Below, in pieces: positions 24,600-63,498 of a stretch of DNA of 64,000 nt (the first letter of the stretch is position 1; the number at the start of each line of letters is the position of its first letter). The translations under genes were made by a program, and so were the position numbers. The DNA is taken from positions 2,212,001-2,276,000 of the forward strand of contig NZ_CP120863.1 of assembly GCF_026191725.2 (NCBI RefSeq), given 5' to 3'. Source of the stretch: Roseibium porphyridii. GTDB taxonomy: Bacteria; Pseudomonadota; Alphaproteobacteria; Rhizobiales; Stappiaceae. The notes beneath the pieces were generated by a model. It did not search any database. It saw only the letters and a list, made by a program, of their open reading frames with translations, and was not told the DNA's origin.

Positions 24600-24706
24600 G
24601 ATCAGTCCTCTGCTGCGGGTCGGGTGCTTTCAGTTGTTGAATGTCCCTTCAGTTTTGAGACTCGAACCCGGGTGCGCATTGACCGAACTCAAGGAAGTAT
24701 AGAAAA

Positions 24707-24722
24707 ATTCGATATTATGAAT
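24707..24722. promoter_or_regulatory. SoxR/SqrR-type operator (site A)
   Basis: ATTC-GATATTAT-GAAT is an exact match to the ATTC-N8-GAAT motif reported for the persulfide-responsive repressor SqrR. It lies upstream of the second YeeE/YedE gene. Confidence 0.7.
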
Positions 24723-52001: not shown

Positions 52002-52577
52002 TCAACGGTCGTAAATACTCATGACAACGCCTGACTGGGTGGCTTCCAGTTTCTTGAGCACAAAACCGCTCAAAGAGCCCGTTTCCTGAAAGAGGCGTTT
52101 GCCGGATCCGGCAACGACCGGAAATGTCCAAAGCCGAAACTCGTCTATCAGGTTATGCATGGCCAACAACTGGATGAGTTGCCAGCTCCCGTGCACCTGG
52201 AGCAAAGGCCCGTTCGATGCCTTCAGGTCCGCAATTTCGGTCACGAGATCGCCGCTCAGCTTTTCGGAAGGCGACCAGGTCAACTCGTCCATCGTCCTTG
52301 TTGCGACAAATTTTCTTGCCCTATTCATTATGCGGGCAGGGCCGCTGTCCTCCGCTTCCGGCCAGTGACCGGCAAAAAGCTGGTAGGTCTTTCGCCCGAA
52401 CAGCATGTCATAGGGTTCATTCATGGCTTCGCGTTGAACCTGCTCCATGACGTCTTGCCAGAAGGGCGCTGCCCAACCGCCTCCTTCGAAATCTCCAGAT
52501 CGATCTTCGTCGGGTGAACTCGGTGACTGCATCACACCATCCATCGTTAAAAAAGTCAGAATCGCGAGTTTTCTCAT
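52002..52577 (-). CDS. Dihydrofolate reductase-family (RibD C-terminal-like) protein
   Basis: A 191-residue NAD(P)H-binding reductase-fold protein: MRKLAILTFLTMDGVMQ, PYDMLFGRKTYQLFAGHWPEAE, LLQVHGSWQLIQLLAMHNLIDEFRLWTFPVVAGSGKRLF. Such proteins are common beside ArsR/SRPBCC modules, and their substrate is unknown. The ATG at 52577 overlaps the stop of the SRPBCC gene (ATGA), so it is the third gene of that unit. Confidence 0.85.
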   Translation of the reverse strand: MRKLAILTFLTMDGVMQSPSSPDEDRSGDFEGGGWAAPFWQDVMEQVQREAMNEPYDMLFGRKTYQLFAGHWPEAEDSGPARIMNRARKFVATRTMDELTWSPSEKLSGDLVTEIADLKASNGPLLQVHGSWQLIQLLAMHNLIDEFRLWTFPVVAGSGKRLFQETGSLSGFVLKKLEATQSGVVMSIYDR

Positions 52578-53032
52578 GTCGCCTGTCCTTCGATTAAAGT
52601 GTCTGACAGGAGGTCCAATGTGCTTTCCCAGCCCTCCTGGTGCACCGTGCAAGCCGTGTCGTTGGGAATGCCTTCATGCACAATTTTGACTTCAGTGGCC
52701 TCGCCGGATCGTTCGAAGTGAAATGTGACACACATTGGTACTCCTGCGAGCGGGTCGGGAGCTTCCCAGACCCAGGTCATCTTGATTGTCCTGTCTCGCT
52801 CTATTTCTTCGAAAGTGCCGCTAACCACGGGTCTCCTTCCATCGGGCAAAAGCCAGGCAAGGCGGTATCTGCCACGAACGCGAAATTCGTAAGTCAATAT
52901 TTCGACAGGTGTGTCCGCATTTGGTTTGAACCATCCGGCAAGTGCGGCAGGGTCAGTAAAGGCTGCGAAAATCCGGTTGCAAGGAGCCGCGATGATACGG
53001 CTGACGATCAACGGAATCGGAGCTTCCGTCAT
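52574..53032 (-). CDS. SRPBCC (AHSA1-like) domain protein (module 2)
   Basis: A 152-residue helix-grip protein: SRIIAAPCNRIFAAFTDPAALAGWFKPNAD, YEFRVRGRYRLAW, SGTFEEIERDRTIKMTWVWEAPDPLAGVP and a C-terminal helix with QEGWESTLDLLSDTL. It overlaps the upstream ArsR gene by four bases and the downstream reductase gene by four, so the three are co-expressed. The ligand is unknown. Confidence 0.88.
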   Translation of the reverse strand: MTEAPIPLIVSRIIAAPCNRIFAAFTDPAALAGWFKPNADTPVEILTYEFRVRGRYRLAWLLPDGRRPVVSGTFEEIERDRTIKMTWVWEAPDPLAGVPMCVTFHFERSGEATEVKIVHEGIPNDTACTVHQEGWESTLDLLSDTLIEGQAT

Positions 53033-53403
53033 TCTGTATCCTCGTCACTTCCGTCCGTTGCCCGAAGCTCTGGTTGCCCATCAGTGACGAAACTTTCCAG
53101 GTTCCGAAGAGCGCCTTCCCAGAAGGTGCGATGCCGTGAAATCCAGTCTTCCGCCTGTCTCATGCTGTCCGCAACGAGGTGAAAGTGATGGACACGCCCG
53201 TTTACTTCCCGGCGAACAAGGCCGGCGTTTTCAAGTACTTTCAAATGTTTGGAGATCGTGGGTTGCGCAGCATCGAATGGCGCACGCAGCTCTCCTGCGG
53301 ACAAAGCCCCGCGGCTTGCGAGCATTGAAATCATCTCGCGGCGAGTTCCGTCCCCAAGAGCATGGAAGGCACGGTCGAGACTGTTTTGATAATGTATAGC
53401 CAT
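53029..53403 (-). CDS. ArsR-family winged-helix regulator (module 2)
   Basis: A 124-residue regulator: LDRAFHALGDGTRREMISMLASRGALSAGELRAPF, AAQPTISKHLKVLENAGLVRREVNGRVHHFHL, then ESFVTDGQPELR. It is typical of ArsR proteins partnered with SRPBCC genes. Its start codon lies inside an 18-base palindrome, indicating autoregulation. It is only distantly similar to the ArsR at 10761 but has the same arrangement. Confidence 0.9.
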   Translation of the reverse strand: MAIHYQNSLDRAFHALGDGTRREMISMLASRGALSAGELRAPFDAAQPTISKHLKVLENAGLVRREVNGRVHHFHLVADSMRQAEDWISRHRTFWEGALRNLESFVTDGQPELRATDGSDEDTE

Positions 53404-53584: not shown

Positions 53585-54643
53585 TCAGTTGGAAGATGTC
53601 AACATCACGGAGGCAAGGTCCTGACCAACGGTGGTTTCTCCTTCAAAACCGCTCTTTGAAACCGCGTCGCGGTAGTCGTCTTCGCTCAGGGCGCCGTCGG
53701 GCAGTTTGTAAGGACCCTGACGTGGTGCCCCAACAGGCGGGATCAGATGGGTCAGCATCAGGTGTTTGGCACCGGCCCGCTTGGCGAGATGGCCAAGATC
53801 GGTAGCGTTGCTCTGTCGGAAAAATATCGGCGGCGGAAAGCCTGTGCCGCCGTCAGGCCCCATCACAGGGTGAATGGTTGAATGAACGACAATGTCTGCG
53901 CCAGCTGCAAGCTTTTCAACCTGATCGGATGTGGAGGTCTTGCGTGGGGGCTTGCGCATGTCATTTCCGGCATCGCCGCCTATGACCACGCTGCCTGCTG
54001 GTGTGTCGACGCGATAAGACGCGTGCCCGGCAATGTGGGTGGAGCGGATAGCGCTGACCGACACATCCCCTTTCGACCAGACTTTCTGCGCCTCGTCTTC
54101 CGGTTTGAAGTCCTTGACGACAATGAGCTCTGCCGGTCCGCCAGGCAATCGTTTCTTGTTTTCCGCCAGGCGCTGCGCGATCTCGCCGGACTGGATCAGG
54201 GAATCGCCAATGTGTTTGGCAAAGCGTGCGCAGCTCAACGAAAAGCCGAGCGGTGATTTCGTCTCCTCGCTACAGACAAGGTCGACCTTCGGACCGCCGG
54301 AGTTGAAATGCCAACGCAGTTGCATCATGTCGGCGAGACCTTCGGTGTGGTCTGAGTGCAGGTGCGTCAGAAAGACCGCATCGAGCTGACCGACCGGAAC
54401 GCCTGCCTGGCTAAGGCGCTGTGTGGTGCCACGCCCGGTGTCGAACTGCAATCGAATGTCATTGCATTTGGTTTCAGCAGATCCGAATTGCACGAGCGTT
54501 CCCGCGCCTGCCTGCCCTTTGAATACGGGCGGTCCGCCTTGCGTGCCGGTGAGCGTTACTTTCAGGCAACTCTGTGCCTGTGCGCCTGTGGCAACCAACA
54601 GGCACGCACCGAAGAAAACGGCACCAACCAGTTTCCGTGTCAT
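53585..54643 (-). CDS. Secreted metallo-beta-lactamase-fold hydrolase (AtsA/ElaC-like)
   Basis: A 352-residue protein with signal peptide TRKLVGAVFFGACLLVATGAQA and an intact metal site (FLTHLHSDHTEGL, STHIAGHASYRV, VIGGDAGND, LMLTHLIPP) in the style of the ElaC/arylsulfatase branch. The mature form should be periplasmic. It starts at the ATG at 54643, behind GGGAGGTGG. A GntR-type operator-like site lies 36 bases upstream, and malonyl-CoA decarboxylase is the gene before it, so it probably belongs to the catabolic cluster. Confidence 0.84.
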   Translation of the reverse strand: MTRKLVGAVFFGACLLVATGAQAQSCLKVTLTGTQGGPPVFKGQAGAGTLVQFGSAETKCNDIRLQFDTGRGTTQRLSQAGVPVGQLDAVFLTHLHSDHTEGLADMMQLRWHFNSGGPKVDLVCSEETKSPLGFSLSCARFAKHIGDSLIQSGEIAQRLAENKKRLPGGPAELIVVKDFKPEDEAQKVWSKGDVSVSAIRSTHIAGHASYRVDTPAGSVVIGGDAGNDMRKPPRKTSTSDQVEKLAAGADIVVHSTIHPVMGPDGGTGFPPPIFFRQSNATDLGHLAKRAGAKHLMLTHLIPPVGAPRQGPYKLPDGALSEDDYRDAVSKSGFEGETTVGQDLASVMLTSSN

Positions 54644-54678
54644 GTCCACCTCCCATCGATTTATTATTTATGGATTCA

Positions 54679-54694
54679 ATAATATCGATTTTTA
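54679..54694. promoter_or_regulatory. GntR-type operator half-site (site 1)
   Basis: ATAATATCGATTTTTA matches the palindrome ATAATATCGATATTAT at 13 of 16 positions, with the left half intact. It lies just upstream of the MBL gene. Other ATCGAT cores lie close by (54655, 54713). Confidence 0.55.
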
Positions 54695-54765
54695 ATTCAA
54701 ATGCAAAATTACATCGATTGTATGAGGTTTTGTTGCAATGAAATGCTGGACTTAAAGGACTGCCA

Positions 54766-56040
54766 TTATGCAGCTGGTACCTGGTCCTGATTGCTCAAGT
54801 CTTGCTTTCTTGCCGTGCCATCCAACGACCGAATGTCCGAACTCGCGGCGATTTCCTGCCGTGTCGCAAAGCCTTCGTGGTTTTGCGGAACTCTTGCAAG
54901 GTCATAGAGATAGTTGACCATCACACCGGCCGACTGTGCTGTGCCCTTTTCGGAAAGGTCTGCATCGGCATGGACTGCGTGAACAAGCGCGCCGTTGCCA
55001 AGGTGGAAGCGGGCGACCGGATCGAGCGGCAGCCCGTCCTTCCGTTTTGCCGACATGAGATAGTGGGCAGCGAGCAGTTTGAGCTGTTTAGCGTCTGCGC
55101 CCTCGAATGGGATTCCGTTGTCGGCCAGCCAGCGGGTGAGGCCGGGAATGGGTGACAGGGTCACGAATGTCTTCAAATCCGGAAGCTCGGCTGCGAGATC
55201 CGTGGCCACTTGTTTGATCAGGGAGTTGCCGAAAGAAATTCCGGCGAGGCCTGCCTGGCAATTGGAAATGGAATAGAAGACAGCTGTCCTGGCTTTATCC
55301 GCCGTGATCGGTTCGCGGCCCTCGGCCAGCAATTCCTGGACTGACCCTGGAATGTCGCTTGTCAGAGCCACTTCAACGAAGATCAGGGGTTCATCCGGCA
55401 TCGAAGGATGGAAGAACGCGAAGCACCTTCGATCAACCGGTGCCAGTCGACGTCTCAAATCTTCCCAGCTGCCGATTTCATGCACCGCTTCATAGGCAAT
55501 GATCTTTTCAAGAATATGCGCGGGGCTTTCCCAGCTGATGGGACGCAGAACCAAGAAACCCCGATTGAACCAGGAGAGGAAAAGGTGCCGAAAGTCCTGA
55601 TCGAGTGCCTGCAGCTCATGATCCTGTCCACCAAGCCGCAACAGATCCGCCCGCATCTGAACCAGAACTTGTGTTGCCCCCGGTATCTGGTTCAAGCGAC
55701 GGATCAATTCCTGGCGATCAGGTTCCACTGCCGCCATGAAGTCCCGATATGTCTGTTTGCTCGGGCTGGCTTCATAGGCGTCCAGCGTTTGGCGCACCTG
55801 CTCCGGATCAATGTTCATGTCTCCGGCAAGATGATGAAAGAAGGCCAGTTTCCCTTCATCGGTCAGCTCCTGGTATCGCAGCAGGATTTGATCGGCAATT
55901 GTCAGTCCTGTGACATCACCTGTTGCGCCAACAAGCGCCTTTATGAGGTCTTCAAGCGAACGGCCGTCGAACTGCGCGGCCGGTCCTCTGAAATACCGGC
56001 GCTCAAAGATTGTCGACAGCAAATCGCCAAGAATGGTCAT
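54766..56040 (-). CDS. Malonyl-CoA decarboxylase
   Basis: A 424-residue enzyme that decarboxylates malonyl-CoA to acetyl-CoA. The helical N-terminal domain includes FFHHLAGDMNIDPEQVRQTLDAYEASPS. The catalytic domain shows RRCFAFFHPSMPDEPLIFVEVALT, SISNCQAGLAGISFGN, FVTLSPIPGLTRWL and ARFHLGNGALVHAVHADADLSEKGTAQSAGVMVNYLYDL, all standard. It suggests that the cluster's pathway yields malonyl-CoA or malonate. It follows the YciI gene by 96 bases. Confidence 0.93.
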   Translation of the reverse strand: MTILGDLLSTIFERRYFRGPAAQFDGRSLEDLIKALVGATGDVTGLTIADQILLRYQELTDEGKLAFFHHLAGDMNIDPEQVRQTLDAYEASPSKQTYRDFMAAVEPDRQELIRRLNQIPGATQVLVQMRADLLRLGGQDHELQALDQDFRHLFLSWFNRGFLVLRPISWESPAHILEKIIAYEAVHEIGSWEDLRRRLAPVDRRCFAFFHPSMPDEPLIFVEVALTSDIPGSVQELLAEGREPITADKARTAVFYSISNCQAGLAGISFGNSLIKQVATDLAAELPDLKTFVTLSPIPGLTRWLADNGIPFEGADAKQLKLLAAHYLMSAKRKDGLPLDPVARFHLGNGALVHAVHADADLSEKGTAQSAGVMVNYLYDLARVPQNHEGFATRQEIAASSDIRSLDGTARKQDLSNQDQVPAA

Positions 56041-56136
56041 GGGCGGCTCCGAGTGTCTGACAGCTGTGTCTCATAAGATAGGTGTACATGGGCAGCGCGG
56101 ACACTCCCCCAAATAGGCAATGCCGACACCTGGAAG

Positions 56137-56523
56137 TCAGGAGAAGCTGACCTTCTTCCCGGACAATCCGACGGAAACCGTGAAACTGCCCTCATTGACC
56201 AACCATCGGCGAATGGCGAAGGTTCTGACGCCGCGCTTGTGCATCGGGTCGTTCTCGGCGAGAGCTCTGGCCTCTTCAAGCGAGGCGGCCCTGTAAATGA
56301 TCATGCCTTCGCCATTCATATCTTCACCCGTGGCGTCGGACACCGGTCCGGCAAAAACCAGTTTCCCGTCCTGTTCCAGCTCGGCCTGATAGGCCAGGTG
56401 GTCCGGTAGTGTGCCCGGCAGGTCCGCATCCGGTCCGGATGGTTTGGAATTCACAACAAAGAGTTCAAGCGCGAGTGCTCCGCGTTCCTTGGCAATACGT
56501 TTGTAGTCTGCCCATTTCGGCAT
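56137..56523 (-). CDS. YciI-family protein
   Basis: A 128-residue protein with the YciI ferredoxin-like fold: RGALALELFVVN, DHLAYQAELEQDGKLVFAGPVSD and MIIYRAASLEEARALAENDPMHKRGVRTFAIRRW. Some family members are lactone or chloromuconate-related isomerases and hydrolases in aromatic pathways, so a role on a ring-cleavage product is possible. Start at 56523 behind GAAGGAGA. It is divergent from the FAH gene across an operator. Confidence 0.85.
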   Translation of the reverse strand: MPKWADYKRIAKERGALALELFVVNSKPSGPDADLPGTLPDHLAYQAELEQDGKLVFAGPVSDATGEDMNGEGMIIYRAASLEEARALAENDPMHKRGVRTFAIRRWLVNEGSFTVSVGLSGKKVSFS

Positions 56524-56551
56524 GATTGATCTCCTTCTTTCCGGCAGTTTA

Positions 56552-56567
56552 AAAAAATCGATATTAT
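56552..56567. promoter_or_regulatory. GntR-type operator (site 2)
   Basis: AAAAAATCGATATTAT matches ATAATATCGATATTAT at 14 of 16 positions. It lies between the divergent YciI and FAH genes and could control both directions of the catabolic cluster. Confidence 0.65.
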
Positions 56568-56624
56568 TTGACAATCTATAAGATAGTCGTCAAAGTATCA
56601 AAAATTACAGAAACACCGAGGCGT

Positions 56625-57509
56625 ATGATGCGGTTTATTGTAGGGACAGGTTTGTCGGGGCAGGGTGTCTTTCTCGTCGATGGGGAATGGGCCTGGAACC
56701 TGACGGCGATTGACGGACGGGTTGGCACGGATCTGAGGCCGCTGATCGAAGGATCGGTGGATCTGAACAGCCTTGCAGGACAAAAGAACAAGGTGGACGC
56801 GGAGCCGGTCACCTCTTTAACACCTGGACTTCCGGTCATCCGCCCCGGCAAAATCATCTGCCTCGGCCTCAACTATGTCGACCACATCAAGGAAGGCGGC
56901 TATGACGTTCCGGTCTACCCGGCGCTCTTCATGCGGTGCACCACATCCATGATCCCGGCAGGTGCGCCGATGGTCCGCCCGTCGTGCTCCGAACAACTTG
57001 ACTATGAAGCGGAGCTGATGGTGATCATCGGCAAGGGCGGCAAGCACATCAGCGAAAAAGACGCGCTCGATCATGTCTTTGGTTACACCCTTTTCAATGA
57101 CGGCTCGGTGCGTGAATACCAGCGCAAGACCCATCAGTGGACACCGGGCAAGAATTTCGACGCAACAGGGCCGATCGGTCCAGTCATCGTAACGCCTGAC
57201 GAGCTGCCGGAGGGCGCTGATGGGCTCAAGATCGAGTCTCGCGTCGGCACTGAAATACTGCAGAGCGCAACCACATCGGACATGCTTTGGAGCGTTGCCC
57301 GCACCATTGCGACTGTCTCAGAATTCTCAACACTGGAGCCTGGAGACCTTTTGGCCATGGGAACGCCTCCGGGTGTAGGACATGCCAAGAAGCCGCCGCG
57401 TTGGCTGCGCCCTGGTGAAACTGTTGAGGTCGAGATCGAAGGCATCGGCATTTGCGCAAATCCGATTGTCGCAGAAGAAGATCAGGTGACGACGGAGGCG
57501 GCTGAATGA
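56625..57509 (+). CDS. Fumarylacetoacetate hydrolase-family protein
   Basis: A 294-residue hydrolase of the FAH superfamily that typically cleaves acylpyruvates, fumarylpyruvate or 2-oxo-dienoates. It shows GKIICLGLNYVDHIKEGG, the metal-ligand segments DYEAELMVIIGK and FNDGSVREYQ, KNFDATGPIGPVIVTPDEL and AMGTPPGVG. The substrate is inferred to be a ring-cleavage product because a dioxygenase ends this unit. Start MMRFIVGTG at 56625; the frame upstream has no ribosome-binding site. It overlaps the next gene by 4 bases. Confidence 0.87.
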   Translation: MMRFIVGTGLSGQGVFLVDGEWAWNLTAIDGRVGTDLRPLIEGSVDLNSLAGQKNKVDAEPVTSLTPGLPVIRPGKIICLGLNYVDHIKEGGYDVPVYPALFMRCTTSMIPAGAPMVRPSCSEQLDYEAELMVIIGKGGKHISEKDALDHVFGYTLFNDGSVREYQRKTHQWTPGKNFDATGPIGPVIVTPDELPEGADGLKIESRVGTEILQSATTSDMLWSVARTIATVSEFSTLEPGDLLAMGTPPGVGHAKKPPRWLRPGETVEVEIEGIGICANPIVAEEDQVTTEAAE

Positions 57510-58186
57510 ACATGATCGCGTCCAAGGCACCTTCAGGCGAAGCGCTCGCAAAACTGAGGGCGGAAGCGCAAGCAACCATAAGGGACCTGCGTGACCGGAT
57601 CGAGACGCTGGACAATGACAGCATCGATCTGATCCTGCGCTCGGCCCGCTCGCATTATGCCTGGCAGGACAAGTCTGTTCCGCGAGAGTTGCTGGAAATC
57701 ATTTACGACATCACCGCTGCGGGGCCGACCAGCATGAACTCATGCCCGGCGCGCTTCTTTTTTGTCGAAACAGCCGAAGCCAAGCAGCGTCTGGCCAAGT
57801 CGTTGAAAGACAAGAATATCGACAAGATGATGTCGGCACCGGTTTCCGTGATCATTGCGCATGATGTCGAGTTCTGGAAAGAGCTGCCATACCTGTTTCC
57901 TCATGAAGACCGGCGCCCCCATTTCATGCACAAGCCCGAGCATTCCGAGGTGACCGCCTTTCGCAATGGAACCCTGCAGGGTGCCTATTTCATGATCGCG
58001 GCTCGTGCTGTTGGACTGGATGTTGGAGCCATGTCCGGGTTTTCCAATGCGATCGTCGATGAAGAGTTCTTCTCGGGTACATCCCTGAAATCCAACTTCC
58101 TTTGCAATCTCGGCTATGCCGACGAAACAGCTCTGTTTCAGAAATTGCCAAGGCTGCCGTTCGACACGGCTTGCAAGTTTCTGTGA
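57506..58186 (+). CDS. RutE/HadB-like nitroreductase-family protein
   Basis: A 226-residue FMN enzyme. LDNDSIDLILRSARSHYAWQDKSVPRELLEIIYD and AAGPTSMNSCPARFFFV closely match the RutE group (malonic semialdehyde reductases), while GAYFMIAARAVGLDVGAMSGFSN is general for nitroreductases. Reduction of a semialdehyde, or of a nitro or quinone intermediate, is possible. ATGA overlap with the FAH gene implies coupling, and the OsmC gene follows after 10 bases. Confidence 0.85.
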   Translation: MNMIASKAPSGEALAKLRAEAQATIRDLRDRIETLDNDSIDLILRSARSHYAWQDKSVPRELLEIIYDITAAGPTSMNSCPARFFFVETAEAKQRLAKSLKDKNIDKMMSAPVSVIIAHDVEFWKELPYLFPHEDRRPHFMHKPEHSEVTAFRNGTLQGAYFMIAARAVGLDVGAMSGFSNAIVDEEFFSGTSLKSNFLCNLGYADETALFQKLPRLPFDTACKFL

Positions 58187-58196
58187 GGTTCGGTCC

Positions 58197-58652
58197 GTGG
58201 CCTTGAAGGAAAAAACAGTCGTCAAACTCCGGGCAAAGGCAAATGGCCTGTCGCATTCGCGGACGGATATCGGAATTCGCGATGTCAGCTATTCGATTGA
58301 CGAGCCTGTTGCACGGGGCGGGACCAATCTTGGACCGGCACCGACTGAGGCTGCCCTTGGGGCACTGGCCGGTTGCACCAATGTCATCGGACACAAATGC
58401 GCTGCGAAACTCGGTGTTGATATCGGTCATATGGAAATTGAAATCACCTGCGAATTCGACCGCAGGGGCGTCACGCTGGAGGAAGAGATTGACGTTCCCT
58501 TTGTTGCATTGCGTCAGGTTGTGAGCGTCGACGGAAGTCTTTCGGAAGACGATCTTCGGCGGGTCGGCGATGAAGTCGCAAAATACTGTCCCTTGTCCAA
58601 ACTGTTCGAACAGTCAGGGACCAAACTTGAGACGATCTGGCAAAAAGCCTGA
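58197..58652 (+). CDS. OsmC-family protein
   Basis: A 151-residue protein with a GTG start. The two OsmC cysteines are in GALAGCTNVIGHKCAAKLG and VAKYCPLSKLF, typical of peroxidases that reduce organic hydroperoxides. PTEAALGAL and DIGHMEIEITCEFDRRGV fit. Whether it detoxifies a peroxide by-product or has another role in this pathway is unknown. It lies between the nitroreductase and TRAP genes in one unit. Confidence 0.85.
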   Translation: MALKEKTVVKLRAKANGLSHSRTDIGIRDVSYSIDEPVARGGTNLGPAPTEAALGALAGCTNVIGHKCAAKLGVDIGHMEIEITCEFDRRGVTLEEEIDVPFVALRQVVSVDGSLSEDDLRRVGDEVAKYCPLSKLFEQSGTKLETIWQKA

Positions 58653-58683
58653 CCGGTCTCGCTTTCTTTGGGAGGAGAATGCC

Positions 58684-59769
58684 ATGATTGGAAAACTGAC
58701 AAGACAGAGCGCATTGGCGCTGGCTTTCCTGAGTGCAACCGCAGTACCGTCCTTTGCGACGGAAACGATCAAGGCTGTGGTTATTGACGGATATCCGGCA
58801 CGAGCGCTCTGGGTGAAGGAGTTCACCAACTTCTTTATTCCGGAAGTCGACAAACGTCTTGCTGAGACCGGCAACTACAAGATGGATTGGCAGGAGAGCT
58901 ATGGCGGATCCATCGTCAAGCCGAAAGGTGTTCTGGAAGGTGTGAAACTCGGACTGGGCGACATCGGCATCGTCACGACGATTTTCCATTCATCCAAGTT
59001 GCCAAGCCAGGCGCTTGCAGCCGTAACGCCGTTCATTGCTCCGGATTCCCGGGCGGTTGCCAAGGCGGTGGATGAGATCGCCAAAGAGTTCCCGACGATG
59101 CAGAAGGAGTTCGAGGCACAAAACCAGGTCTATCTGGCAACTGGCGTCGTGCTCGATACCTATCAGCTGTTCTCCAAGGACCCGGTCAACTCGCTGAAGG
59201 ATGTTGAGGGCAGCAAGGTCGCCGGAGCCGGCATGAACCTGCGGTATCTTGAAGGCATCGAAGGTGCTGCAGGCGTGCGTGGCGGTCTGACCGACTTCTA
59301 CAACATGCTGCAGACCGGCCTGGTCGACAATGCGATGCTTTGGCCGGAAGCTGCAAAGACATTCAAGATCGCGGAAGTCGCTCCCTACATGCTGAAGGCT
59401 GACCTTGGTGCGGTGAATTCCAAGACGATCACGGTCAACAAGGACTATTGGGACGGTCTTCCGGACGAAGTGAAAAATGTCCTGCAGGAAGTGGCTGTTG
59501 AGTATCGCGACCACGTTGCCGGCATTGCCATGGACAGAGCCGATGCAAGTCGGTCAGCATTTGTCGAATCCGGTGGGACGGTCGTTGACTTAGACCCGGC
59601 TGAGCGGAAAAACTGGGCGGAAGCCATGCCGAACATTGCCGTGGAATGGGCCGCAGAGCTGGATTCCAAAGGTGAACCGGGCAGCGATATGCTGAAAGCT
59701 TATATGACGAAGCTGCAGGAAGCCGGGTACTCACCTGTCCGCGACTGGTCTGCAGAGCTTTCTCAGTAA
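58684..59769 (+). CDS. TRAP transporter substrate-binding protein (DctP type)
   Basis: A 361-residue periplasmic protein with signal MIGKLTRQSALALAFLSATAVPSFA. The fold is that of DctP binding proteins: KMDWQESYGGSIVKPKGVLEGVKLGLGDIGIV, AAVTPFIAPDSRAVAKAVDE, KVAGAGMNLRYLEGIEGA and VDNAMLWPEAAKTFKI. An Arg that binds carboxylates is expected near residue 210. The start at 58684 has a GGGAGGAGA site. The substrate is probably an aromatic or organic acid used by this cluster. Confidence 0.9.
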   Translation: MIGKLTRQSALALAFLSATAVPSFATETIKAVVIDGYPARALWVKEFTNFFIPEVDKRLAETGNYKMDWQESYGGSIVKPKGVLEGVKLGLGDIGIVTTIFHSSKLPSQALAAVTPFIAPDSRAVAKAVDEIAKEFPTMQKEFEAQNQVYLATGVVLDTYQLFSKDPVNSLKDVEGSKVAGAGMNLRYLEGIEGAAGVRGGLTDFYNMLQTGLVDNAMLWPEAAKTFKIAEVAPYMLKADLGAVNSKTITVNKDYWDGLPDEVKNVLQEVAVEYRDHVAGIAMDRADASRSAFVESGGTVVDLDPAERKNWAEAMPNIAVEWAAELDSKGEPGSDMLKAYMTKLQEAGYSPVRDWSAELSQ

Positions 59770-59800
59770 AGCGCCAGCAGCGCACAAGTGGAGCGCCAGA

Positions 59801-60361
59801 ATGTTGCGTCCAATTCTTTCTGGCGTTCGCGCCTTCTCCAGACTTGCCAACTGGGTGGCCATGGGTGCCAACGCAGTTGGTACCCTCATCGTGCTCGCCC
59901 TGATCATGGTGGTGAATTACGACGTCGTCGCGCGCGGTTTGTTCAACGCACCGTTTCGCGGCGCTGTCGAAGTCGTTCAGTTCTCCATGGTGCTGATTGT
60001 CTTCCTGCAACTGCCCGACGTGGTGAGAATGAACCGGCTCACCCGGTCGGACGGTTTTCTGACAATCCTTCAGGCGACCAAGCCGAAACTTGCTGAATCG
60101 ATCCGGCGGATCATCAACTTCGCCTCGGCCGTGTTCATGACGCTGGTTGCCTATGCAATCTGGCCAGAGTTTCTGGAAATGTACGAGACACAGGACTATT
60201 TCGGCGTCCCGGGCATTTTCACGGCTCCCTGGTGGCCGCTGAAACTTGCCATATTCCTGAGCGCAGCCCTGTGCCTGATCTTGTTTGCTCTCAAAGCCCT
60301 GACCGGTGAGAGGTCCACCGACCCTGTCCGTTACACCAAACAGCCAGAGGATAACGCGTGA
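59801..60361 (+). CDS. TRAP transporter small permease (DctQ type)
   Basis: A 186-residue inner-membrane protein with four predicted helices: GTLIVLALIMVVNYDVVARGLFNAPFRGAVEVVQFSMVLIVFLQLP at the N-terminus is typical of DctQ. It docks on the large permease. It overlaps the next gene by 4 bases (GTGA) and lies 31 bases after the binding protein. Confidence 0.9.
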   Translation: MLRPILSGVRAFSRLANWVAMGANAVGTLIVLALIMVVNYDVVARGLFNAPFRGAVEVVQFSMVLIVFLQLPDVVRMNRLTRSDGFLTILQATKPKLAESIRRIINFASAVFMTLVAYAIWPEFLEMYETQDYFGVPGIFTAPWWPLKLAIFLSAALCLILFALKALTGERSTDPVRYTKQPEDNA

Positions 60362-61665
60362 GCCCTTTTGAAATCGGCATTCTGTCCGTCATCGCGATTG
60401 TCGTACTGGTCTATCTCGGTGTTTACATTCCAATCGCGCTTGGGCTGGTGTCCTTTGTCTCGATCGTGTTGATGCGGGACAATTTCGATCTGGCCGTCAA
60501 TCTTCTCAAGATCGCGATTGGCGACAGTGTGATGGAATACACTTTCGCCACGGTTCCCCTGTTTACCTTCATGGGACTGATTGTCTCAAAAGCAGGGCTG
60601 GGAGCCGACATTTATGCGGTTATGAATTCAGGTTTCAAGAAGGTCAAAGGTGGCATCGGCATGGCAACAGTCGGCGCCAATGCTGTCTTCGCTGCCGTGA
60701 CCGGATCTTCGATTGCCTCAGCATCGGTGTTTTCAAAGGTCTCCGTCCCGCAAATGCTGGCCTTTGACTATAACCCGCGATTTGCCGTCGGCGTTGTCGC
60801 TGGGTCTTCGGTCCTTGGCATGATCATTCCGCCTTCCGCCATGCTGATCATCTATTCCTTTGTTGCCGAGCAAAGTGTTGGCGACATGTTTCTGGCCGGT
60901 GTGGTGCCAGGCCTTCTGCTGGCAGCAGCCTATGTGATTGCCATCTTTCTGATGGGCCGATTTGCACCCAGCTATGTGGGTGGGCGACCTGCGGAGGAAA
61001 CTGAATGGATGTCTCCCTGGGAAATCGCCGAAAAGACCCTGCCGACGCTGTTCCTGATTTCCGTGGTCCTGGGTGGTATTTACACGGGATGGTTCACCCC
61101 TGTTGAAGCCGGTGCCGCCGGTGCGCTTCTGGGTCTGGTTATTGCAGCCTTCCGGCGCCGTCTGTCGCTGCAGTCTCTTTGGAGCACGCTTCTCGAAACG
61201 GGGCACATCACGGCATCCATCCTGTTTTTGATTACCGCTGCATCGATCTACAGCCGCATGCTGGGTCTTGCCGGTCTGCCGAATGAACTTGGCGACCTTC
61301 TGACTGAAACCCAGATGAGCTTCTTCTGGGTGATGGTCATCTACGTGTTGTTGATGATCTTCCTCGGCACTTTGTTGGACACGGCCTCGATTATCCTGAT
61401 CGTCGTGCCGCTGTTTTTGCCTCTCGTCGAGCCCATGGGGCTGTCCCTGATCTGGTTCGGCATCGTCACGGTCGTCGGTGCCGAGATCGGGCTGCTGACA
61501 CCACCTCTCGGCATATCCTGCTTTGTTATCAAGGCAACGCTCAACGATCCGCGGATTTCACTCAAGGATGTCTTTATCGGCGCGTTTCCCTTTGCGGTGG
61601 TGATGCTGATCGTCCTCATTATTCTGATCCGCTGGCCTTCTCTGAGCCTGGCCATACTGAACTAG
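60358..61665 (+). CDS. TRAP transporter large permease (DctM type)
   Basis: A 435-residue inner-membrane protein with about 12 helices; GTG start. GGIGMATVGANAVFAAVTGSSIASASVFSKVSVPQML and GSSVLGMIIPPSAMLIIYSFVAEQSVGDMFLAGVVPGLLLA are strong DctM motifs, and LLTPPLGISCFVIKA is the second one. It forms the sodium-driven channel with DctQ. It precedes the dioxygenase by 10 bases. Confidence 0.93.
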   Translation: MSPFEIGILSVIAIVVLVYLGVYIPIALGLVSFVSIVLMRDNFDLAVNLLKIAIGDSVMEYTFATVPLFTFMGLIVSKAGLGADIYAVMNSGFKKVKGGIGMATVGANAVFAAVTGSSIASASVFSKVSVPQMLAFDYNPRFAVGVVAGSSVLGMIIPPSAMLIIYSFVAEQSVGDMFLAGVVPGLLLAAAYVIAIFLMGRFAPSYVGGRPAEETEWMSPWEIAEKTLPTLFLISVVLGGIYTGWFTPVEAGAAGALLGLVIAAFRRRLSLQSLWSTLLETGHITASILFLITAASIYSRMLGLAGLPNELGDLLTETQMSFFWVMVIYVLLMIFLGTLLDTASIILIVVPLFLPLVEPMGLSLIWFGIVTVVGAEIGLLTPPLGISCFVIKATLNDPRISLKDVFIGAFPFAVVMLIVLIILIRWPSLSLAILN

Positions 61666-61675
61666 GAACTCTGTC

Positions 61676-62545
61676 ATGCGTCACGTGACCAAGGACAACA
61701 TTACCGACGTCTTCATGAGCTATTTCGGGCCTGACACGGACCCGAGATTGAAGGAGATTCTGAAGAGCCTCGTCACACACCTGCATGCCTTTGCAAAAGA
61801 GACCAACCTGACCCATGAAGAATGGCAGAAGGGGATCGAGTTTCTGGAATGGGCAGGCGATATCTCTGACAAGGAGCGCCATGAATTCGTGCTCCTTTCA
61901 GATGTGCTCGGACTATCGTCTCTGGTCGACATGCTTCATTCCAATCCGCACGGCACATCTTCAAGCGTGCTCGGGCCGTTCCACATCACCGGTTCGCCGC
62001 CTCTGGCAATTGGAGGGGACCTCAGGCAGGATTTCAACGAGCAGGTTCTTCTTGCCAAGGGAACCATTCGGGATGAAAAAGGCCGACCAATCGAAGGTGC
62101 TGAACTCGACATCTGGCAAACAGCGCCAAACGGGCTTTACTCCAGCCAGGACCCGGATCAGGACACCTATTCCTTTCATGGCATTCAAACGACCGGCAAG
62201 GACGGGCGTTACGCTTTTACCACCGTCAAACCCGTAAGCTATACGGTGCCAAGTGACGGGCCGGTGGGCGACATATTAACGGCAAGCGGACGCCACCCGT
62301 GGAGGCCCTCACATCTCCATTATATTGTCAAAGCGCCTGGTTTCCGGCCACTCGTTACGGAGATTTTCCCCGACGACGATCCTTACCTGGATCAGGACAC
62401 GGTTTTTGGCGTGCGTGCGGATCTTGTCATGACTTATGTCGAAGAGGCTGCCGGAACCTTTCCAACCGAAGGGTTTGAACTATCCGGAAAAGTAGACGGA
62501 CCATATCTTGTGGCGGATTTTGATCTGGTGCTGGTTCGCGAATAG
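61676..62545 (+). CDS. Intradiol ring-cleavage dioxygenase (catechol/hydroxyquinol 1,2-dioxygenase type)
   Basis: A 289-residue non-heme Fe(III) enzyme that cleaves catechols or hydroxyquinols between the hydroxyls. The four iron ligands can be seen in order: Tyr155 (APNGLYSSQD), Tyr189 (PVSYTVP), His213 and His215 (RPSHLHYIV). The N-terminal helical domain and GPFHITGSPP are typical of the catechol/hydroxyquinol group. It is the last gene of the rightward catabolic unit, so its substrate is probably what the TRAP system imports. Confidence 0.92.
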   Translation: MRHVTKDNITDVFMSYFGPDTDPRLKEILKSLVTHLHAFAKETNLTHEEWQKGIEFLEWAGDISDKERHEFVLLSDVLGLSSLVDMLHSNPHGTSSSVLGPFHITGSPPLAIGGDLRQDFNEQVLLAKGTIRDEKGRPIEGAELDIWQTAPNGLYSSQDPDQDTYSFHGIQTTGKDGRYAFTTVKPVSYTVPSDGPVGDILTASGRHPWRPSHLHYIVKAPGFRPLVTEIFPDDDPYLDQDTVFGVRADLVMTYVEEAAGTFPTEGFELSGKVDGPYLVADFDLVLVRE

Positions 62546-62607
62546 GACCGTCAAAAGACAGAGACAGGCTCACACAAAACCCTGATTGAGCTGCAGGGCG
62601 CATTGAT

Positions 62608-62624
62608 ACTTTCTTTCAGAAAGT
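62608..62624. terminator. Short hairpin between convergent genes
   Basis: ACTTTCT (62608-62614) pairs with AGAAAGT (62618-62624) around TTC, in the 148-base gap between the dioxygenase and GntR genes. It lacks a T run. Confidence 0.3.
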
Positions 62625-62693
62625 GGGATCTTTCGCGTTGAACCTTCGCAGCAGCAGCGCCAGGAAACAAAAGCAAATCATTGCGTGTTTCGC

Positions 62694-63374
62694 CTATTCG
62701 GCAGCTTCGAGCGTGAAGTGTCTTTCCAGGAAAGCGCCGGTCCGCTTGTAGTGATCCAGAAGCAGGGCACAGGCATGGTCCGCATCGCGATCGACCGCAG
62801 CGTTCATGATGTCTTGATGCTCCTTGCCGATATCCCGCTTGGAATAATTCAGCGCTTTACCGGCGAGATACCGGTAGCGGATGTTGAGATCGTAGAGCTG
62901 GTTGCAGAACTTGAGCAGTACCGGCGAGTTGCAGGCGCTGATGAGGTTCATGTGAAAGGCCTTGTGCAGCTCTTCAAACCGTTCCACGTTGCCGCGTGGT
63001 TCACGCATCATCCGGTGATGGCTGATCACGAGTCGATCTTCCCAAGCCTGATCTGCGACAGCCAGGCTTTCCCGCAGAGCCATCTCCTCAAGCTGGCAGC
63101 GCAATTTCAGGATTTCGCTGAAGTTGTGCGGGCTGATTTCTGCTGTGCGGAAACCGCGTTGATCGAGGCGTTCCACCAAAAGATCGGAGACCAGCAAGGT
63201 CAGTGCTTCGCGAATTGGCGATCCGCCCATGTCGAGGATCTTGCGCAGATTCTCGATTTTCAACTTCTGACCGGGGGGCAGTTCACCTACCAGGATCATA
63301 CGCCTGATGGACAAATAAGCGCGTTGCGTTGCTGAGGGCTCTTGTGCCGGATCGATGTGTGTTTGAATGTTCAT
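62694..63374 (-). CDS. GntR-family (FCD) transcriptional regulator
   Basis: A 226-residue repressor. The winged helix shows ATQRAYLSIRRMILVGELPPGQKLKIENLRKILDMGGSPIREALTLLVSDLLVERLDQRGFRTAEIS, followed by the all-helical FCD effector domain (RCQLEEMALRESLAV, EELHKAFHMNLISACNSPVLLKFCNQLYDLNIRYRYLA), with acidic and His ligand positions. The start at 63374 lies 5 bases from a perfect palindrome, so it is autoregulated. It probably controls the whole 53585-62545 cluster. Confidence 0.92.
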   Translation of the reverse strand: MNIQTHIDPAQEPSATQRAYLSIRRMILVGELPPGQKLKIENLRKILDMGGSPIREALTLLVSDLLVERLDQRGFRTAEISPHNFSEILKLRCQLEEMALRESLAVADQAWEDRLVISHHRMMREPRGNVERFEELHKAFHMNLISACNSPVLLKFCNQLYDLNIRYRYLAGKALNYSKRDIGKEHQDIMNAAVDRDADHACALLLDHYKRTGAFLERHFTLEAAE

Positions 63375-63379
63375 ACCTG

Positions 63380-63395
63380 ATAATATCGATATTAT
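63380..63395. promoter_or_regulatory. GntR operator, perfect palindrome (site 3)
   Basis: ATAATATCGATATTAT is a perfect 16-base palindrome immediately upstream of the GntR start codon. Related sites occur at 54679 and 56552. Confidence 0.75.
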
Positions 63396-63498
63396 GGCTG
63401 TTATACCACTTTTAACTAGAAGTATTCCAGGTAAGGTCAAGCAAATTTGATAGGGATATGGCCAATCTGGGCTGCCGAATGCCGATTTTCAGGGCAGA

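Follow-up and report, generated by a model that had tools for sequence, protein, structure and literature searches.

The gene cluster studied here occupies positions 53585 to 63395 of a 64,000-nucleotide stretch of the Roseibium porphyridii genome (contig NZ_CP120863.1, positions 2,212,001 to 2,276,000; hereafter the window), and several described systems resemble it in part. For example, the tcp (2,4,6-trichlorophenol), tft (2,4,5-T) and pnp (4-nitrophenol) pathways use a hydroxyquinol-type 1,2-dioxygenase, as does the cluster. One published account, in excerpt, gives the pnp pathway a YciI-family gene, pnpX1 (PMC6063337), and an excerpt of another places TftG in the tft pathway and describes TcpB as a quinone reductase resembling nitroreductases (PMC3975901). 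Judged by the weak Protein Data Bank (PDB) match of the cluster's YciI protein, TftG is YciI-like. These pathways have a LysR regulator, whereas the cluster has a GntR operator and TRAP import; the cluster is also without maleylacetate reductase and carries an FAH-family or homocitrate-synthase-like enzyme together with malonate genes instead. The mat loci matRABC and matPQMAB, as an excerpt of their description has it, combine malonyl-CoA decarboxylase (MCD), the malonyl-CoA synthase MatB, a GntR regulator and often a TRAP importer (PMC5237526). In fungi, the ring opening of 1,2,3,5-tetrahydroxybenzene is ascribed to a DUF3500 protein in excerpts of two papers (PMC12388069, PMC13094099), and the latter, a recent review, describes the pathway in that excerpt as seemingly fungal only so far.

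On balance, we believe that the GntR regulator of this cluster represses a pathway in which a hydroxyquinol, probably 6-substituted, is cleaved and the C6 product is split by the FAH-family hydrolase to malonate and a C3 acid. The genes and predicted operators are as follows.

62694..63374, minus strand: GntR/FCD regulator (Pfam GntR and FCD; relatives)
56625..57509, plus strand: FAH-family hydrolase, FAH (Pfam PF01557; PDB relatives HpcE and L-2,4-diketo-3-deoxyrhamnonate hydrolase)
57506..58186, plus strand: RutE-like nitroreductase-family protein, NTR (NCBIfam PRK05365)
58197..58652, plus strand: OsmC-like protein (Pfam)
58684..59769, plus strand: TRAP binding protein DctP (Pfam, NCBIfam)
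59801..60361, plus strand: TRAP small permease DctQ (Pfam)
60358..61665, plus strand: TRAP large permease DctM (NCBIfam TIGR00786, above cut-off)
61676..62545, plus strand: hydroxyquinol-type intradiol dioxygenase, HQD (Pfam; best PDB matches PnpC and hydroxyquinol 1,2-dioxygenases)
56137..56523, minus strand: YciI-family protein (Pfam; sole PDB match TftG)
54766..56040, minus strand: MCD, accessory (Pfam MCD domains)
53585..54649, minus strand: MBL-fold hydrolase, MBL, accessory (Pfam Lactamase_B; relatives; signal-peptide-like start)
63380..63395: predicted operator O1, the perfect palindrome ATAATATCGATATTAT (0 mismatches), ending 5 bp upstream of the GntR ATG
56552..56567: predicted operator O2, between the divergent YciI-MCD and FAH operons, 2 mismatches to ATAATATCGATATTAT
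54679..54694: predicted operator O3, before MBL, 3 mismatches to ATAATATCGATATTAT

The original prediction had reported a perfect palindrome before the GntR gene with 14/16 and 13/16 matches elsewhere in the cluster, and these sites are present and well above chance: the window holds four matches to ATAATATCGATATTAT at up to 3 mismatches, against a mean of 0.03 in 100 shuffles, none of which had four. The start codon common to relatives of the GntR gene is the ATG at 63374; the longest open reading frame, from a TTG at 63440, would overlap the palindrome. The whole genome (5.94 Mb) contains 16 such matches versus 4 for the reversed pattern, and the strict pattern WWWAWATCGATWTWWW without mismatches occurs at five sites versus two for the control, namely O1 to O3, one site before a TAXI-type TRAP gene and one before a gene read as zwf. 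Promoter-like matches overlap O2 and O3 (6 found versus 3.7 expected, weak alone), which, together with the position of O1 next to the GntR start, suggests that GntR acts as a repressor at the predicted operators. The fourth window match (24703-24718, 3 mismatches) lies outside the cluster and adjoins genes reading like YeeE/YedE-type transporters; a link between this site and the cluster was looked for and none was found.

Conserved co-occurrence, on which the original prediction depended, was found: in a genus set of 37 genomes, GntR (at least 60% identity) and HQD (at least 67% identity) co-occur in 22, this genome included. As far as contigs allow, the core order YciI<>FAH-NTR-(OsmC)-TRAP-dioxygenase><GntR is kept in the other 21 genomes (loci L079-L100). 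The exceptions are G035, split across two contigs, the short locus L083, and some loci with as much as about 5 kb between GntR and HQD; L097, L099 and L100 have no OsmC match, and DctM in L086 and DctQ in L080 each match as two pieces. The presence of MCD and MBL varies among the genus loci. What stands of the palindrome-marked catabolic regulon proposed at the outset is a set of import, ring-cleavage, FAH and malonyl-CoA decarboxylation genes, with MCD and MBL as accessory members outside the core.

The operators are kept with the genes. The YciI/FAH site O2 is found with at most 2 mismatches in 20/20 genus loci having YciI, where the reversed control never comes as close as 4. All 16 loci L079-L094 have the GntR-proximal site O1, located between -21 and -23 and with no more than 3 mismatches; no GntR-proximal site was found near the start in the five genus loci with a 60-62% GntR. 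MBL is linked in 11 genus loci; 7 of these have an own site corresponding to O3, and in the remaining four MBL follows YciI. No own site was found for MCD in the genus loci, as is expected from its location behind YciI. Strict sites number 83 in the 22 cluster genomes and 15 in the 15 others, with 3 control sites in all 37 (2 of them in this genome; p 2e-6); in the genomes without the cluster, many of the strict sites, among the matches listed, are of the TTTAAATCGATTTAA kind. Among 24 genomes outside the genus, strict sites occur in 3 (6 in total), and the control gives 8, in 2 genomes.

Could the shared motif be a generic AT-rich coincidence and not the operator of one regulator? This is suggested by the strict pattern in this genome, where it gives five sites versus two for the control, and by a different motif, TTTAAATCGATTTAA(A/T), which stands before the gene read as zwf at G000:C1:2297676-2297691 (L222) and recurs in genus genomes both with and without the cluster; the site at 2297676 was rejected as the same operator for its different motif kind. 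However, the position of the site is kept across many genera, the reversed control never equals it at YciI, and loci L079-L100 have 49 sites at up to 3 mismatches versus 0 for the reversed control, so we regard coincidence as scarcely credible. In L107 (G033), which has a GntR relative at 40% identity, three sites resembling the motif lie close to a TRAP permease-like gene and a gene read as a VOC-family enzyme, and the motif may thus be common to a GntR subfamily.

For conservation beyond the genus, the best 80 of 298 HQD relatives were kept, and gene presence was counted at 40% identity or more. Around these 80 HQD genes, we found GntR in 68 loci, DctM in 68, DctQ in 63, DctP in 60 and a TAXI binding protein in 8; the enzymes NTR, YciI, OsmC, FAH, MCD and MBL were found in 57, 53, 51, 49, 35 and 10 loci, respectively. 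All of these counts are lower bounds because many contigs are cut. In a second locus set, L124-L188, nearly all from other genera (L124 is Roseibium), the best site before YciI had at most 4 mismatches in 39/39 loci, whereas the reversed control had at least 5 in 39/39. FAH shares the YciI site in 32/33 loci of this set, and in its FAH-less loci the site sits between YciI and NTR. A plasmid of Pacificitalea manganoxidans (pDY25-C, 112 kb; L228) carries the order MatB-MCD-YciI<>FAH-NTR-TRAP-HQD-GntR with no OsmC at that place. Sulfatase genes lie near HQD in L157:7142-8725 (above the choline-sulfatase cut-off) and, by our reading, in L145 and L159, a hint at sulfated substrates.

Unlinked genes appear to belong to the same regulon. 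At C1:2948815 of this genome, ATAATATCGATTTTTT stands before an unlinked TAXI-type TRAP importer, whose orthologue (E 1e-60) is present in 13/22 cluster genomes and 0/15 others (p 2.3e-4). A ATATCGAT-core site lies upstream of this importer in 13/13 cluster genomes, although in 8 of these the match requires 4 mismatches; the TAXI loci, G053 included, have 15 motif matches versus 1 for the control. The importer adjoins GntR in Pelagibius litoralis, and in G053, where no site was found upstream of it, it adjoins a 46% GntR and a 58% FAH. MBL likewise follows the cluster (13/22 cluster genomes versus 1/15 others, p 0.0016). In the lone exception, G001, the contig ends at MBL-YciI<>FAH, so that it looks like a cut cluster. 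All 14 genus MBL genes have a site before MBL or before a YciI-MBL pair, and in G031 a perfect palindrome stands before an MBL gene on a contig other than that of the cluster. An additional strict site, some 7 kb away from that of YciI/FAH, is present in G004, G006 and G007. In the first two (L261:6412-10333 and L262), it stands before three genes that we read as a molybdenum hydroxylase of the CoxMSL type; L105, too, has Cox-like genes in the neighbourhood of TRAP-HQD-GntR.

The nearest PDB relatives of HQD are PnpC and hydroxyquinol 1,2-dioxygenases, including 6-chlorohydroxyquinol dioxygenase, and by these relatives the enzyme, whose intradiol family had been named correctly before, is a hydroxyquinol-type dioxygenase. 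Hydroxyquinol ring cleavage yields maleylacetate, not a 2,4-dioxo acid. A maleylacetate reductase query, which scores 370 bits against such reductases in the PDB, found no match at a cut-off of E 1e-30 in this genome or in 15/22 cluster genomes, and there was none within the 80 HQD loci. Six of the seven cluster genomes with a maleylacetate reductase carry further HQD-family matches; the seventh, G007, has a single HQD match and its reductase at a contig end, and in G011 two HQD matches were found but not a single reductase. HQD has M86 in 79/81 and E229 in 81/81 cluster-type rows, and A86 with H/Q229 is found in every row adjacent to maleylacetate reductase. As a pathway marker, M86/E229 is only suggestive, since reductase-less rows fall on both sides. 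Position 99 (L versus F) was rejected as a specificity marker: rows beside maleylacetate reductase show L, F or R.

It is possible in principle that the canonical hydroxyquinol pathway operates here, in which HQD would form maleylacetate, the RutE-like flavoprotein would replace maleylacetate reductase to give 3-oxoadipate, and FAH and the malonate genes would serve otherwise. HQD, YciI and an NTR-like gene are also found in the pnp and tcp pathways, and NTR is present in 57 of the 80 loci. However, FAH lies next to HQD and NTR is missing in L145, L147, L158 and L178 (the contigs are partly cut: L147 ends inside FAH, and the FAH of L158 is only 46% identical), and the mutual exclusion of FAH and its alternative enzyme and the recurrence of MatB/MCD, described below, would be left unexplained. 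We therefore consider this pathway unlikely. The same low probability applies to a lower pathway for halogenated hydroxyquinols from bromo- or chlorophenols, in which a TftG-like YciI would dehalogenate, NTR would reduce the quinone and HQD would cleave the ring. The sole PDB match of YciI is TftG (weak: E 0.0012, 22 bits), 6-chlorohydroxyquinol dioxygenase is among the nearest relatives of HQD, and TcpB is a nitroreductase-like quinone reductase, yet neither an FADH2 chlorophenol monooxygenase nor a maleylacetate reductase was seen in the cluster, and the malonate genes again have no role.

FAH has an alternative. After 26 of the 80 loci were dropped, 54 had both sides evaluable; 43 of them have FAH and 10 a homocitrate/isopropylmalate-synthase-like (HMGL-like) enzyme, which scores below every NCBIfam cut-off. 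No locus has both, and the single locus with neither is on a contig that ends 1.3 kb on. The exclusion has a p of 4.6e-10 with kinship ignored, and at least 4 changes are needed on the HQD tree; in all 80 loci, the numbers are 46, 15 and 0 for FAH, the HMGL-like enzyme and both, respectively. MatB (above the NCBIfam cut-off) together with MCD occurs in 15/23 FAH-type versus 0/8 HMGL-type loci with room (p 0.0024). The two patterns fit a hydrolysis that releases free malonate in the FAH type and a cleavage that gives malonyl-CoA directly in the HMGL type, and we infer from the gene content that the two types may work in this way. The original prediction ended in a C3 product such as malonic semialdehyde or malonyl-CoA and its decarboxylation; malonyl-CoA decarboxylation genes do recur beside the cluster, but a malonic-semialdehyde step is not needed.

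The company of TRAP, GntR, MCD and sometimes MatB, as in matPQMAB and matRABC, could also mark a malonate-uptake locus with hitch-hiking genes, in which TRAP would import malonate for use by MatB and MCD. The cluster MCD is 68-72% identical to mat-locus MCDs. In the MCD tree, 4 mat-locus rows (L094 assigned by reading) fall together with 11 from Roseibium clusters, and the other 25 cluster rows stand apart, which implies either two separate entries of MCD into this position or its replacement. The cluster differs in that its GntR is 22-26% identical to three mat-locus GntRs and its DctP 23%, and that its operator is unlike the TTGTATACAA-like sites found between the genes of the mat loci. Moreover, the three plasmid mat loci examined have no ring-cleavage genes, no MatB stands beside MCD in the window or in L109, and the TRAP genes belong to the HQD operon even where MCD is absent. 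We rejected this explanation on the GntR, operator and DctP comparison and consider it highly unlikely.

In this study, we propose that the GntR/FCD repressor would bind operators of the ATAATATCGAT type next to the GntR gene itself, at the YciI-MCD/FAH divergence, before MBL and before the distant TAXI-TRAP genes, and that an inducing ligand would release it. The TRAP and TAXI importers would take up a polyhydroxylated aromatic or its precursor, NTR and OsmC would keep it reduced against autoxidation, and HQD would cleave the hydroxyquinol-type ring. FAH, or the HMGL-like enzyme in some relatives, would then split the C6 product into malonate or malonyl-CoA and a C3 acid, and malonyl-CoA synthetase (unlinked in this genome, at C1:4420421) and MCD would convert malonate through malonyl-CoA to acetyl-CoA. 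NTR scores 258 bits on the RutE equivalog model PRK05365 (cut-off 152; the match begins at residue 32), but no other rut genes of the pyrimidine pathway lie in the cluster, where its constant neighbours are FAH, OsmC and TRAP. Homologues named RutE are found both within a rut operon and, on a Roseibium plasmid, in a cluster of the gallate type. By analogy with TcpB, compared by description only, NTR is more plausibly a hydroxyquinone reductase than a malonic-semialdehyde enzyme.

Several observations weigh against this proposal. FAH reaches no curated hydrolase cut-off; its best NCBIfam model, at 186.5 bits against a cut-off of 500, is 2,4-didehydro-3-deoxy-L-rhamnonate hydrolase, an enzyme that hydrolyses a 2,4-dioxo acid. 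MCD and MatB occur in only 35 and 17 of the 80 loci, respectively, and the 8 FAH-type loci with MCD and without adjacent MatB are all Roseibium. The site before GntR has at most 4 mismatches in only 25/53 loci of the set L124-L188 (control 2), being weak or missing in many, and HQD stands without any other sought gene in 8/80 loci (L137, L141, L144, L148, L149, L157, L159 and L164; some are cut). No monooxygenase that would produce the ring substrate was found in this cluster. MhpA-type FAD monooxygenases occur in 7/80 loci, not in this window; in L178, one follows FAH/HQD together with ABC-importer-like genes. The FAD monooxygenase of L132 was set aside, its match in this genome being only 28%.

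Cleavage of 6-hydroxy-hydroxyquinol would give 2,4-dioxoadipate, the kind of substrate used by FAH-family acylpyruvases, which would yield pyruvate and malonate. The best-fitting substrate would be this compound, 1,2,3,5-tetrahydroxybenzene. We tentatively suggest, as a possibility we hold with some doubt, a bacterial central tetrahydroxybenzene pathway under a single GntR operator: HQD would form 2,4-dioxoadipate, FAH would release pyruvate and malonate or the HMGL-like enzyme with CoA would give malonyl-CoA and pyruvate, and MatB/MCD would lead to acetyl-CoA. The source might be phloroglucinol, gallate or phlorotannin units, and the hosts might be dozens of mostly marine alphaproteobacteria. 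The proposed substrate class is the same as in the fungal pathway, and an FAH-like split would follow here, whereas the ring would be opened by an intradiol dioxygenase here and is ascribed to DUF3500 in fungi. No description of this regulon or of the breakdown of its substrate was found in the literature searched, which left most subscription papers outside its scope.

With regard to the individual proteins, the gene family names given earlier hold in the Pfam and NCBIfam scans. The GntR helix-turn-helix and FCD domains are both above the Pfam gathering score, as expected for the FCD subfamily, and NCBIfam models for MBL, YciI, FAH, OsmC, the dioxygenase and GntR matched below cut-offs only. 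The cluster proteins are 99-100% identical to their counterparts in Labrenzia sp. THAF82. The N-terminus of the MBL protein resembles, by our reading, a signal peptide; its predicted fold (mean pLDDT 61) was too low in confidence for a structure search and was not used. ArsR, SRPBCC and RibD-like genes (52002-53403) adjoin the cluster and are kept in the closest relatives only (2/80 loci).

A tight regulon common to so many genera points to one common substrate, probably marine. The proposed pathway would offer a way out of hydroxyquinol-type cleavage that needs no maleylacetate reductase and uses malonate as its currency. The repeated exchange of FAH and the homocitrate-synthase-like enzyme would be a natural experiment that ties an unassigned enzyme to one chemical step.

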